Assembly: GCA_036504215.1 (NCBI GenBank)
Contig: DASXVO010000052.1
Coordinates: 1-64,000, forward strand
Direction: 5' to 3'
Length of the DNA: 64,000 nucleotides
DNA from: Vicinamibacterales bacterium
GTDB taxonomy: Bacteria; Acidobacteriota; Vicinamibacteria; Vicinamibacterales; Fen-181
Positions 13,114 through 18,892 of the stretch are shown here, piece by piece. A program made the position numbers and the translations under genes. The notes below the pieces were generated by a model that made no database searches, had not been told where the DNA came from, and was given only the letters and a program-made list of their open reading frames with translations. How positions within the stretch are numbered: position 1 is the first letter of the stretch; every line of letters starts with the position of its first letter.

Positions 13114-13617
13114 ATGGGACATCTCGAGCACAAGGCGCAGTCGCCCGCCGTGGCGAACTGCTACATCCTGACGATCAGCGATACGCGGACGGAGGCGACC
13201 GACGCCAGCGGACGCGCGATCTTCGACCTGTTGTGGGCGGGCGGCCACCAGGTGGCGGGGCGGAAGATCGTACACGACGAGCCGGACCAGGTGCGCGCGG
13301 CGATCGAGGACCAACTCGCCAACCCGGGCGTGCAGGCGGTCATCACGACGGGCGGAACCGGCATCACCTCGCGCGACACGACCTTCGAGGCCATCGACGC
13401 GCTGCTCGAGAAGCGACTCGACGGCTTCGGCGAGTTGTTCCGGATGCTGAGCTTCCAGGAGATCGGATCGGCCGCCATGCTCAGCCGTGCGTGCGCGGGG
13501 CTGGCCAGGAAGAAGGTGATCATCTCGCTGCCCGGCTCCGAGAATGCCGTGCGACTGGCCATGACCAAGCTCGTCCTGCCGGAACTGGGCCACTTGGTGA
13601 GAGAAGCGTCGCGGTGA
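13114..13617 (+). CDS. moaB: Molybdopterin adenylyltransferase-family protein MoaB
   Basis: The 167 aa protein has the MoaB/Mog fold, with ITTGGTGITSRDTTFEAIDALLEK containing the TGGTG loop and conserved Asp. SRACAGLARKKVIISLPGSENAVRLAM near the C-terminus is also family-typical. The enzyme adenylylates molybdopterin before metal insertion. Its stop overlaps the start of moeA (TGATG), so the two sequential steps are translationally coupled. Confidence 0.92.
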   Translation: MGHLEHKAQSPAVANCYILTISDTRTEATDASGRAIFDLLWAGGHQVAGRKIVHDEPDQVRAAIEDQLANPGVQAVITTGGTGITSRDTTFEAIDALLEKRLDGFGELFRMLSFQEIGSAAMLSRACAGLARKKVIISLPGSENAVRLAMTKLVLPELGHLVREASR

Positions 13618-14840
13618 TGTCGAAGACTTCCATGCGACCGATTCGCGAGACGATTCCGCTCGAGGAGGCGCGCGCGCTGATGCGCCAGGCGGCCAGGCCG
13701 ATCACGCGGACCGAGCGCGTCCCGCTCGACGAAGCAGCAGGCCGGGTCGTCGCCCGCGAGATCGTGGCCGGCCAGGACGTGCCGCCGTTCGCCCGAGCGG
13801 CGATGGACGGGTTCGCGGTTCTCGCCGAGGACACCTTCGGCGCGGGGCAGTTCGACGCGAAGGTGCTGCGCGCGGTCGAGAAGGTCTATACGGGCCAGAT
13901 GCCGACGCGTGCCGTCTCGCCCGGCACGTGCATCGAGATCGCCACCGGCGCGCCGATGCCGGAGGGCGCGAACGCCGTCGTGATGGTCGAGGAGACCGAG
14001 AAGGACGAGTCGGGGCAGGTGCGCATCTTCAGCCCGGTCTACCCTGGGCAGAACGTCGGGCGCCAGGGCGCCGACATCCGCGCGGGGCAGACCATCCTCG
14101 CGCCCGGTGAGTACCTCACGTCGAGCCGCGTCGGCGCCATCGCCGCACTGGGCTTCGATTCGGTGGAGGTCTTCGCGCGGCCGCGCGTCGCGATCCTGTC
14201 GACGGGCAACGAGATCGTCCAACCGGGACGCCCGCTCGCGCCGGGCCAGATCTACGACATCAACCGTTTCACGCTCGGCGCCATCATCATCGAGCATGGC
14301 GCGGTGCCGGTGCCCCATCCGACCTCGGCCGACACGCTGGACGATCTCGACCACGCGCTCGACGCGTGTCTCTCCGAAGACCTCATCATCTTCTCCGGCG
14401 GCAGCTCGGTCGGCGAGCGCGACCTCATCCTCGATGCCATCGCGGCGCGGGGCGAGATCGTGTTCCACGGCATCGCGGTGAAACCCGGCAAGCCGACACT
14501 GTTCGGCCTCATCGACGGCACGCCGGTCCTCGGCATGCCCGGCTACCCGACGTCCTGCCTGTCGAACGGCTACATGCTGCTGGTTCCGGTGCTTCGCCGC
14601 CTGGCGCGCCTGCCCGATCAGGCCCCGCGCTCGCTGCGCCTGCCGCTCGGCCAGCGCGTCGTCTCGACGACGGGCCGCCACCAGTTCTATACCGTGCGCA
14701 TCGTGGACGGCCAGGCGATGCCCGCGTTCAAGGCATCGGGCGACATCACCAGCATGTCGCAGGCCGACGGCTACATCGAGATTCCCGCGCAGACGGATAT
14801 CGTAGAAAAGGGCGAGATGGTGGACGTCGTGCTCTTCTGA
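13617..14840 (+). CDS. moeA: Molybdopterin molybdotransferase MoeA
   Basis: The 407 aa product has the four-domain MoeA layout: FARAAMDGFAV near residue 60, the ATGAPMPEGANAVVMVE block, and the MoaB-like domain III with STGNEIVQPG and FSGGSSVGERDLI. GKPTLFG and VLGMPGYPTSCLS follow, then a C-terminal beta domain. It inserts molybdate into adenylylated molybdopterin. The ATG at 13617 overlaps the moaB stop. Confidence 0.94.
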   Translation: MSKTSMRPIRETIPLEEARALMRQAARPITRTERVPLDEAAGRVVAREIVAGQDVPPFARAAMDGFAVLAEDTFGAGQFDAKVLRAVEKVYTGQMPTRAVSPGTCIEIATGAPMPEGANAVVMVEETEKDESGQVRIFSPVYPGQNVGRQGADIRAGQTILAPGEYLTSSRVGAIAALGFDSVEVFARPRVAILSTGNEIVQPGRPLAPGQIYDINRFTLGAIIIEHGAVPVPHPTSADTLDDLDHALDACLSEDLIIFSGGSSVGERDLILDAIAARGEIVFHGIAVKPGKPTLFGLIDGTPVLGMPGYPTSCLSNGYMLLVPVLRRLARLPDQAPRSLRLPLGQRVVSTTGRHQFYTVRIVDGQAMPAFKASGDITSMSQADGYIEIPAQTDIVEKGEMVDVVLF

Positions 14841-14867: not shown

Positions 14868-15353
14868 ATGCCCCGTCATCCCACTCTCGTGCCCGGCACG
14901 CCCGCACCGCCGTTCTCGCTCCCGTCGCAGCACGGGACGATGAAGACGCTGGCCGACTACTGCATGCTCGGCTCGGTGCTGCTGGCGTTCCACCGGGGCA
15001 CCTGGTGACCGAACTGTCGCCGCCAGTTCGGTGAACTGGCACACCACTCCCTGGAATACCTGTCGCTCGGCGTGCAGGTTGCTGCCGTCGTTGCGCAGCG
15101 ATCCGCCAAGGTGAAGCGGTACATCGAGGACCACGGCCTGCCGTTCGACATCCTGGTGGACGACTCGCGCGACACGGTGAAGGCGTACGGCGTGTGGCAC
15201 CCGGTGGGATTCGATGCGTGGAACATCGCCCGACCGGCCCTCTTCCTGATCGACCGCGAGGGGGTCATCCGTTTCAGTTTCGTGGCGTCGTGGCAGACCG
15301 AATTCCCGACGCATGAGGAGATCGTGGAACAGATCGCGCTGTTGCTCTTGTAG
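14868..15353 (+). CDS. Selenocysteine-containing peroxiredoxin-like protein (in-frame UGA)
   Basis: A 161 aa AhpC/TSA-family thioredoxin-fold protein is encoded if UGA at 15006-15008 is read as selenocysteine, residue 47. Before the UGA the frame gives PAPPFSLPSQHG and LLAFHRGTW. After it the frame gives PNCRRQFGEL, the usual F(Y/H)RGxWCPxC active site with Sec in place of the first Cys. The rest (DDSRDTVKAYGVWH, RPALFLIDREGVIRF) is normal peroxiredoxin sequence. A perfect hairpin with a GG-starting loop follows 21 nt after the UGA. Reading TGA as stop would leave a 46-residue fragment and an orphan C-terminus starting at 15072. The gene starts 27 bp after moeA and precedes superoxide dismutase on the other strand, an antioxidant setting. 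Confidence 0.88.
15023..15039 (+). promoter_or_regulatory. Bacterial SECIS-like hairpin of the peroxiredoxin gene
   Basis: A perfect 7 bp stem (CCAGTTC / GAACTGG) encloses the 3 nt loop GGT. The loop begins 21 nt after the UGA and starts with two guanosines, matching the published pattern for bacterial SECIS elements: a stem of 4-14 bp, a G in the first two loop positions and 16-37 nt spacing. SelB with Sec-tRNA would bind here to recode the stop codon. Confidence 0.8.
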
Positions 15354-15463: not shown

Positions 15464-16063
15464 TTACTTGAGGCGGCTGGCCACGATGTCCCAGTTGAGC
15501 ACGTTCCACCAGGCGGCGACATAGTCTGCCCGGCGGTTCTGATACTTCAGGTAGTACGCGTGCTCCCACACGTCGAGGCCGAAGACCGGCCACTTCCCGT
15601 CCATCAGCGGGTTGTCCTGGTTCGCCGTGCTGTCGATCGAGAGCGTCCCGTCGGCCGCCTGGACCAGCCACGCCCAGCCGCTGCCAAAACGGCCCATCGC
15701 CGCCTTCGCAAACTGTTCCTTGAACGTGTCGAGGCTCCCGAACGCGCTGTTGATCCCGCCGAGGAGCGGGCCGCCCAGGCGACCGCCGCCCGGCTTCATG
15801 ATTTCCCAGAACATCGTGTGATTGACGTGGCCGCCGCCATTGTTGCGAACGGCGGTGCGGATGGCCTCAGGGACCGCGTTGAGGTGGCGCAGCAGGTCTT
15901 CGGCCGACTTCTGCTGCAGCTCGGGGTGTTTCTCCAGCGCGGCGTTCAGGTTGGTGACATACGCACCGTGATGCTTGTCGTGATGGATCCGCATCGTCTG
16001 TTCGTCGATGTGCGGTTCGAGCGCGGTATACGCGTACGGGAGTGGGGGCAATTCATGCGCCAC
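15464..16063 (-). CDS. sodA: Superoxide dismutase (Mn/Fe family)
   Basis: The 199 aa enzyme has all metal ligands: H27 (RIHHDKHH), H82 ([10 protein letters not shown]), and Asp and His in [15 protein letters not shown]. The ANQDNPL segment and FGSGWAWLV favour a manganese or cambialistic enzyme over a strict iron one. The protein has no signal peptide, so it is cytoplasmic. The GTG start at 16063 is supported by AAGGAGGA seven bases upstream. It is divergent from the cobalamin riboswitch. Confidence 0.93.
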
Positions 16064-16182
16064 GGGGGTTTCCTCCTTGGAGTGGCTGCGGTTGTGCTGT
16101 TGTGGATGGATCGATGGTACCAAGTGGAGAACGGAAGAGCAAGACATCGTCTCACCCGAGCTTCGAGTCCGGGGCCGCGTGT

Positions 16183-16188
16183 TATACT
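16183..16188 (+). promoter_or_regulatory. Candidate -10 box for the riboswitch-btuB transcript
   Basis: TATACT just upstream of the riboswitch core is a good -10 match. No convincing -35 is seen at 17 bp, so the promoter may be weak or activator dependent. Confidence 0.4.
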
Positions 16189-16189
16189 G

Positions 16190-16372
16190 GCGCCGCAACT
16201 GACGGTTCGCCGGCGTCCAAGCGAAGTGGGTGCAAGTCCCACACGGTCACGCCACTGTAAGCGGGGAGCGAACGCCGCAGAGGATCTCCCGTGAGATCCC
16301 GTCACTGTGCCGCTCACGGCATGGGAAGACGGCAGCGTTCGGCGCGGATCCGCGAGTCAGGAAACCTGGCCG
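16190..16372 (+). ncRNA. Cobalamin (AdoCbl) riboswitch
   Basis: The region has the conserved cobalamin aptamer pieces: GGGTGCAAGTCCCAC near 16228, the B12 box GCCACTGTAA at 16251-16260, and the closing GTCAGGAAACCTGGC at 16356-16370. It lies about 127 nt upstream of a TonB-dependent receptor and the btu transport genes. Binding of adenosylcobalamin should switch off expression of the uptake operon. The expression platform lies between 16373 and 16498. I could not assign it with certainty to a terminator or to sequestration of the start. Confidence 0.93.
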
Positions 16373-16498
16373 CCCGGCACGTCCCAACAATCTCCTCGGC
16401 AGGGTTGCACTGTGTTGTGCCCCTGCAAGTCCGGCCCGATCACCATTCGGGCGTCAGGACGATGGAGATCGGCGCGAAAGACGCCGAAGGACAGCATC

Positions 16499-18892
16499 AT
16501 GCTGAAGGCTCGTGTCTCGATCCGCTCTATCCGCCTGTCTCTTCTCACATTCACCCTCGTCGTCATTACCGTCATTTCAGGTTCCGCGGTAGCGGCCCTC
16601 GCTGCATCGCCCACGCCGGAGCCCCGGGTCCAGAGCCCGGCGGCCAGCACCCAGCATCCAGCGCCCGGGGCGCGAAACCCGGAGCCCGCGATGTCGGCCC
16701 CGGGAGGCGTGCAAGGTGTCGTCACGGATCCGGACGGCAGCCGCGTGCGCGGCGCCCGCGTCATCCTCGTCGGCCATGCGGCGGTCGCCAGCGCGGTGCT
16801 GTCGGACGCGGTCGGCCGGTTCCGGATCGAGCGCGTGCCAGCCGGACAGTACGAGCTTCGCGTGTCGGCGGATGGCTTCCGCGCGGATCCGGTGGCCGTC
16901 GCGGTGGATGCCGGACGCGACGCGGACGTGCCGGTGCGATTGCACGTGAGCGCCGTGTCGGAGTCGGTCGTGGTCTCGGCGGCGCAGGTCGAACTGCCGC
17001 TCGCGCGCGCGGCCGATTCGGTGTCGATCGTGTCCGCCCGCGAGTTGCGTGCGCTGCAGGCCGAAACCGTCGCCGACGCGATGCGCGCGGTTCCGGGCCT
17101 CTCCATCTCGCGCAACGGCGGCCGCGGAGGCGTGACGTCGGTGTTCCCACGCGGCGGCGAATCGGACTTCACGCTCGTGCTCGTGGACGGCATCAAGGCC
17201 AACGCGTTCGGCGGCGGCTACGACTTCTCCGCGCTGTCCGCCGCTGACGTGGAGCGGATCGAGGTCGTGCGCGGGCCGGAGAGCGCGCTGTTCGGTGCGG
17301 ATGCGATGGGCGCGGTGGTGCAGGTCATCACGCGCCGAGGCGGGTCGCCGCGCGTCGAGGGCTCGATCGAATCGGGCTCTCTCAGGACGACGCGGCTGAC
17401 TGCCGGCAGCTGGGGATCGCGCGGCGCCTGGAACTGGGGCGGGTCCGCCGAGCGGCTGTCGAGCGACGGCTTCACCGGGATCGCCCCGGCTACGGGCGAG
17501 ACGGTGTCGAACGACGACTTCCTCATGAAGCACGCGTCGCTCAGTGGCGGCTGGCATGCGCCGGGCGGCTCCGACGTGCGCGGCACCTTCACCGTCACGT
17601 CGGGCGACCGCGGATTCCCGGGGCCCTTCGGATCGAATCCGATCGACGCCTACACCAGCGTGGACCGGATGTCGCGCGGCGCCACGACGACCTGGCAGTA
17701 CGGCGCCAGGTGGCTGCAGCCGATCTCGAGTGGCTCGCGTCACATCCGGCAGACGTCGAGCCTCAACTACCTCGACCTGCACAGCGATTTCGCCAGCAGC
17801 TACGGCCTGTCGGCCTCGACGACGAGCCGGCTGGGTGTGCGGACGCAGACCGACGTGGACCTTTCGGGCGCGCTCGGGCTCTCGGCCGGCGTCGAGCTGC
17901 AGCGCGAGCAGGCGACGAGCACGTTCATCACCGCCGGCAGCACGGGGCCGGTTCCGATTCGTCGACGCGTGATCGGCGGTTTTGCCGAAGCGCGAATTCA
18001 ACCGTCGTCGCGGCTCACGCTGACCGCCGGCGTGCGGGCTGAACAGGTGCAACGCGATCGGCTGGGCAGCAATCCCGATCCGTACGCACCGCGACCTGCC
18101 TTCGACACCGATACCCGCGTGTCGGTGAATCCGCGCATGTCGGCGGCGCTGTTCCTGCCGGGCCTGGCCGGGCCGCGGGGATGGCTGCGCCTGCACGCAG
18201 CGGCCGGTACCGGCATGCGTGCGCCCGACGCGCTCGAGATTGCGTTCACCGACAATCCGGGGCTGAAGCCGGAGCGCAGCCGCAGCGTCGAAGGCGGTGC
18301 GGACCATGCCTTCCTCGGCGAGACGCTCGTCGTCGGCGCCACGGTGTTCTTCAACCGGTACGACGATCTGATTGTGGCGATCGGACCGGCGCTGAAGGAC
18401 GCCAGCCGGTACCGTACCGACAACATCTCCAATGCGCAGTCGCGCGGGGCGGAACTGTCGGCGGCGATGCGGGCGCGGTGGGGTCTGGCGGCAAGGGCCA
18501 GCTACACGTTCCTCGACACGGAGATCCTCGCGGTCGATCGCCTCGGCACGGCGCCTCCGCCCTTCAAGGCTGGCGACCCGCTGTTGCGGCGACCCAGGCA
18601 CCTGGCGTCGTTCGACCTCACTATGACGCGCGGGAAGGCGACGGCGTTCGCCCGCGTGGGCGGCCGCGGCCGCACGCTCGACGTCGAGCCCTCGTACGGC
18701 ACATACGGCGGCCTGTTCGACAATCCTGGCTACACCGTGGTGGACGCGGGTCTGACCTGGCGCGTCGGGCAGGTCGTCGAACTGTTCGGCCGCGTCGGGA
18801 ACCTGCTCGATCGCCGCTACGAGGAGACGTTTGGCTTCCCGGCGCTCGGGCGCAACGCGACAATCGGGGTGAGGGTTGCTGCAGGCCGATAA
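16499..18892 (+). CDS. btuB: TonB-dependent vitamin B12 receptor
   Basis: The 797 aa outer-membrane receptor starts with a signal peptide (to about residue 35) and a Pro/Ala-rich linker. A carboxypeptidase-regulatory beta-sandwich domain follows (GVQGVVTDPDGSRVRGARVIL, about 65-145). The plug domain (ADAMRAVPGLSISRNGGRGG, then VERIEVVRGPESALFGADAMGAVVQVIT) and the 22-strand barrel come next. The cobalamin riboswitch upstream and btuDCF downstream identify the substrate. The ATG at 16499 was chosen because it begins the signal peptide. The C-terminus (VRVAAGR) lacks the usual terminal aromatic residue. The last 17 bp overlap the ATPase gene. Confidence 0.9.
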   Translation: MLKARVSIRSIRLSLLTFTLVVITVISGSAVAALAASPTPEPRVQSPAASTQHPAPGARNPEPAMSAPGGVQGVVTDPDGSRVRGARVILVGHAAVASAVLSDAVGRFRIERVPAGQYELRVSADGFRADPVAVAVDAGRDADVPVRLHVSAVSESVVVSAAQVELPLARAADSVSIVSARELRALQAETVADAMRAVPGLSISRNGGRGGVTSVFPRGGESDFTLVLVDGIKANAFGGGYDFSALSAADVERIEVVRGPESALFGADAMGAVVQVITRRGGSPRVEGSIESGSLRTTRLTAGSWGSRGAWNWGGSAERLSSDGFTGIAPATGETVSNDDFLMKHASLSGGWHAPGGSDVRGTFTVTSGDRGFPGPFGSNPIDAYTSVDRMSRGATTTWQYGARWLQPISSGSRHIRQTSSLNYLDLHSDFASSYGLSASTTSRLGVRTQTDVDLSGALGLSAGVELQREQATSTFITAGSTGPVPIRRRVIGGFAEARIQPSSRLTLTAGVRAEQVQRDRLGSNPDPYAPRPAFDTDTRVSVNPRMSAALFLPGLAGPRGWLRLHAAAGTGMRAPDALEIAFTDNPGLKPERSRSVEGGADHAFLGETLVVGATVFFNRYDDLIVAIGPALKDASRYRTDNISNAQSRGAELSAAMRARWGLAARASYTFLDTEILAVDRLGTAPPPFKAGDPLLRRPRHLASFDLTMTRGKATAFARVGGRGRTLDVEPSYGTYGGLFDNPGYTVVDAGLTWRVGQVVELFGRVGNLLDRRYEETFGFPALGRNATIGVRVAAGR

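Follow-up and report, generated by a model that had tools for sequence, protein, structure and literature searches.

The Prx-like selenoproteins are the closest described counterparts of the gene studied here, and they were defined by a UXXC motif in place of the TXXU of selenocysteine (Sec)-containing peroxiredoxins (Prx) (PMC1088965). Peroxiredoxins in general have an arginine at the position that thioredoxins fill with their cis-proline (PMC2757866). For the Acidobacteriota, a survey published in 2006 credited the group with four selenoproteins from three families (PMC1794560). In this work, we analysed a window of 64,000 nt (positions 1 to 64,000 of contig DASXVO010000052.1, assembly GCA_036504215.1) from a Vicinamibacterales bacterium of this phylum, in which a short gene with an in-frame TGA had been predicted to encode a peroxiredoxin-like selenoprotein. 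Compared by description, the predicted product shares with the Prx-like UxxC selenoproteins (PF00578; PMC1088965, PMC1794560, PMC13188914) both the AhpC-TSA domain and a thioredoxin-like UxxC site with Sec in the first position, and by the published definition the sequence places it as a member of this known bacterial family. The UxxC motif is also shared with the Redoxin family protein UxxC (PF08534; PMC13188914), a comparison made by motif and Pfam match, and a weak similarity to the SelL-related redox protein (NF040769) was found at 52.9 bits, far under the model cut-off of 120 bits.

Reading frame of the gene

Re-reading of the sequence agreed with the original prediction that a single frame of 162 codons, stop included, is interrupted by TGA only once. 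The frame runs from an ATG at 14868 to a TAG at 15351–15353, and its sole internal stop lies in the context LLAFHRGTW-TGA-PNCRRQF (Table 1). The AhpC-TSA domain (PF00578) spans the TGA, matching residues 9–136 of the read-through protein with an E-value of 8e-28, and the same protein is also matched by the Redoxin domain (1.8e-21). Ordinary annotation would cut this gene in two. A second AhpC/TSA homologue, free of TGA, was observed elsewhere in the same genome (G000:C82:16825-17271).

Table 1. Positions in the window of the predicted selenoprotein gene, its elements and its neighbours
Feature	Position	Strand	Basis or properties
Molybdopterin gene of the mogA/moaB type, at the head of the gene string	13114–13617	+	Neighbourhood comparison
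moeA, ends in TGA, 27 nt upstream of the selenoprotein gene	13608–14840	+	Conserved upstream neighbour
Predicted gene of a Prx-like UxxC selenoprotein of 161 aa, Sec47 in the motif W-U-P-N-C	14868–15353	+	Frame, Pfam, orthologues, AF2 model
Predicted Sec UGA codon, codon 47	15006–15008	+	TGA kept in the order and in phylum- and class-level homologues
Candidate bSECIS hairpin GCCAGUUC-GGU-GAACUGGC	15022–15040	+	Stem of 8 bp, GGU loop, 21 nt 3' of the UGA; −11.0 kcal/mol
Gene for an Fe/Mn superoxide dismutase, convergent with the predicted selenoprotein gene	15464–16198	−	Neighbourhood comparison

Active site and fold

The AF2 model of the read-through protein (pLDDT 88.5) has a predicted peroxiredoxin fold, and its best structural match was Bcp4 (3hjp; VIA Z 24.4 over 156 residues). 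The fold is shared over nearly the whole length with the Bcp/PrxQ and AhpE peroxiredoxins (PDB 3hjp, 2cx3, 1xvw), but this protein has other residues in place of their catalytic Pro, Thr/Ser and Arg. When classical Prx of the same order (L085, L089–L094) were included in the alignment, R43, U47, C50 and P123 stood where these have P, S, C and R, respectively, and profile alignments with PDB Prx chains concurred for U47, C50 and P123. U47 falls in the classical Ser/Thr column and C50, three residues further on, in the peroxidatic Cys column, leaving C50 as the only retained residue of the classical PxxxT/SxxC motif and catalytic Arg. The original prediction had put Sec at the catalytic Cys of peroxiredoxins and expected it to raise the peroxidase rate; neither claim is supported, as it is C50 that occupies the peroxidatic Cys column and the catalytic Arg is Pro here. 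The P123 column holds Pro in 36 of the 38 UxxC rows; Ala was seen there in L059 and L060, both UPYC homologues. By alignment, the site thus has the two marks of a thioredoxin-type site, C/UxxC and Pro at the cis-Pro column, within an AhpC-TSA domain in which UxxC replaces TxxC/TxxU. ResA/TlpA-type thiol-disulfide oxidoreductases (PDB 1st9, 3c71) align their GTWCxxC with GTWUPNC here, whereas the present protein carries Sec, and a larger part of it matches Prx folds. Apparently, with U47 at the Ser/Thr column, C50 at the peroxidatic Cys column and P123 in place of Arg, the protein bears a UxxC site of the thioredoxin type on a Prx fold.

These residues also bear on the alternative that the protein is a true Sec protein working mainly as a peroxidase, in which Sec47 or Cys50 would attack hydroperoxides in the manner of peroxiredoxins. 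Such a role would fit the Prx fold, the position of C50 and the presence of a superoxide dismutase gene just downstream, which recurs in convergent orientation in about half of the relatives (10 of 19 loci of the order). However, the Pro, Thr/Ser and Arg of Prx are all replaced, and the Sec peroxiredoxins described so far are TxxU and not UxxC proteins (PMC1088965), so we consider a mainly peroxidatic function unlikely. The protein is most likely a thiol-disulfide oxidoreductase, and Sec47 may also reduce hydroperoxides directly.

Conservation of the TGA codon

A search of the order covered 162 genomes and found the gene in 20 of them, the window's genome included. Exactly one in-frame TGA was present in every full-length match of the order, always directly 3' of FHRGTW, and TGA occupied the column of codon 47 in all 19 full-length rows (the window gene plus 18) and in one fragment. 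L027 was rejected as a close relative, as its THGC motif is that of an ordinary peroxiredoxin. Of 396 genomes sampled from the phylum, 34 gave matches at 1e-15 or below; among the matches listed, all but one (L095) carry one TGA. We read the aligned codon column in 16 phylum loci and 3 class-level loci; outside the order, 19 of the 20 C/UxxC homologues inspected have TGA at the Sec column, and L095 has TGT. Relatives of L095 (L098–L101, 44–52% identity) have TGA at this column, revealing a Sec/Cys exchange at the same column within this group. It is the single Cys case and lies outside the order; no Cys version was found within the window gene's own clade. The original prediction had regarded TGT or TGC in other strains, together with raw reads showing an assembly error, as evidence against Sec and Cys homologues at the column as evidence for it: the relatives carry TGA, and L095 provides one such Cys homologue. 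Plasmid matches all had less than 60% identity, about 30% among those listed, and the named ones are ordinary redoxins.

In the orthologue pairs tested, dN was below dS on both flanks of the TGA, also past the SECIS region, and the weakest contrast (0.385 versus 0.523) was that of L028–L031 in the upstream flank. With dN below dS downstream of the TGA, the gene does not behave as a pseudogene. A frame broken by a stop codon that is one base away from TGT or TGC could in principle reflect a nonsense mutation, or a sequencing or assembly error, in a Cys gene, but dozens of genomes, each assembled separately, have TGA at this codon, and purifying selection extends downstream of it; the conserved TGA effectively refutes this explanation.

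Selenocysteine machinery of the genome

The original prediction named selA, selB, selC and selD as the genes to look for, and all four are present in the window's genome (5.92 Mb, 90 contigs). We found a tRNA-Sec (selC) with a UCA anticodon, selB (359 bits), selA (526 bits) and, on contig C47, a selD whose CSGUASK motif likewise contains an in-frame TGA. This selD is thus itself a selenoprotein gene, and the structure predicted 3' of its UGA includes a hairpin of 8 bp whose loop is GUU. Of the 20 genomes of the order that carry the gene, 19 have selB above the cut-off, and the remaining genome is 77% complete. Read-through of this frame would also result if TGA coded for an ordinary amino acid, for instance Trp, throughout the genome, but this explanation has a negligible chance of being right, as the adjoining moeA ends in TGA, making TGA a normal stop in this genome, the relatives' overlaps of moeA with the gene read TGATG, the tRNA-Sec occurs together with all sel genes, and L095 has Cys, not Trp, at the column. 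Taken with the comparative evidence, the UGA at codon 47 almost certainly encodes selenocysteine, which would make the gene a selenoprotein gene.

Candidate SECIS element

The published bSECIS model comprises a loop of 3–9 nt with G in the first two positions, a stem of 4–16 bp, a distance of 16–37 nt from the UGA and a minimum free energy of at most −7.5 kcal/mol (PMC13188914). The candidate hairpin in Table 1 conforms to this model and is the best such hairpin in the gene. Taken alone, it was not significant against synonymous-codon shuffles (p = 0.29), and the encoded residues QFGELA probably already favour its palindrome. At the family level, for which we used 15 representatives less than 60% identical, the summed hairpin energy gave a z of −5.7, and none of 500 synonymous-codon shuffles reached so low a value; at a control site placed 40 codons downstream, z was +1.05. 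A model hairpin at or below −7.5 kcal/mol was present in 30 of the 38 UxxC genes; L064 had no model hairpin at all, and that of L060 reached just −2.9 kcal/mol. Three mutually exclusive hairpins are possible in the window gene, and pair counts single out none of them; the stem returned by RNAalifold had only 4 pairs, and these showed almost no covariation. Synonymous-codon conservation was higher after the UGA (0.65, versus about 0.6 elsewhere downstream), an effect so mild that we left it out of the evidence. The 'clean SECIS' of the original prediction therefore stands in part: a hairpin conforming to the model exists, but it has two competitors and the signal is significant for the family, not for this gene alone, so that the SECIS of the window gene is plausible and not uniquely clean. 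Promoter and terminator scans found nothing.

Gene neighbourhood

Among the 19 loci of the order that we examined, counting that of the window, 18 have moeA as the immediate upstream neighbour, and mogA is found beyond moeA in most. We read nine more loci, and in seven of these the stop of moeA overlaps or abuts the start of the gene (TGATG or TAGATG). Tblastn found no homologue of mogA, moeA, the superoxide dismutase or BtuB up to 1.5 kb away from the phylum-level homologues, and the mogA–moeA linkage therefore looks clade-specific. In the literature searched, we found no description of this linkage or of the clade's RGTWUPNC motif. On the far side of the superoxide dismutase gene, a cobalamin riboswitch (RF00174, 68.8 bits) was detected at 16186–16388 (+), ahead of a TonB-dependent receptor ORF (16307–18892); the listed start of this ORF is inside the riboswitch, so the true start is probably further downstream.

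Discussion

Our overall reading, to which we assign a probability of about 0.7 from sequence comparison, is that the gene encodes a selenoprotein with a Prx fold and a UxxC site that acts as a thiol-disulfide oxidoreductase. In the mechanism we propose, SelB and tRNA-Sec would decode the UGA, a recoding suggested by the comparative evidence, and a stem-loop just 3' of it would direct this decoding, yielding a product of 161 residues with a predicted peroxiredoxin fold. From the alignment, Sec47 would be the attacking nucleophile and Cys50 the resolving thiol, with Pro123 at the putative cis-Pro position. As an oxidoreductase, the protein would then most likely pass through a selenenylsulfide/thiol-disulfide cycle, with thioredoxin or a similar donor recycling it.

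The constant mogA–moeA neighbourhood provides a functional lead. One could imagine that the Vicinamibacterales selenoprotein serves molybdenum-cofactor assembly as a dedicated redox partner and that its translation keeps step with that of moeA; we regard this proposal as highly speculative and probably wrong, but if true, it would tie the use of selenium and molybdenum together in one gene string. More broadly, the finding corrects the annotation of a gene which, in many Acidobacteriota genomes, would likely be split by automatic pipelines, and the protein, in which a thioredoxin-type site is set in a peroxiredoxin fold, may be useful for understanding how the two enzyme groups relate.
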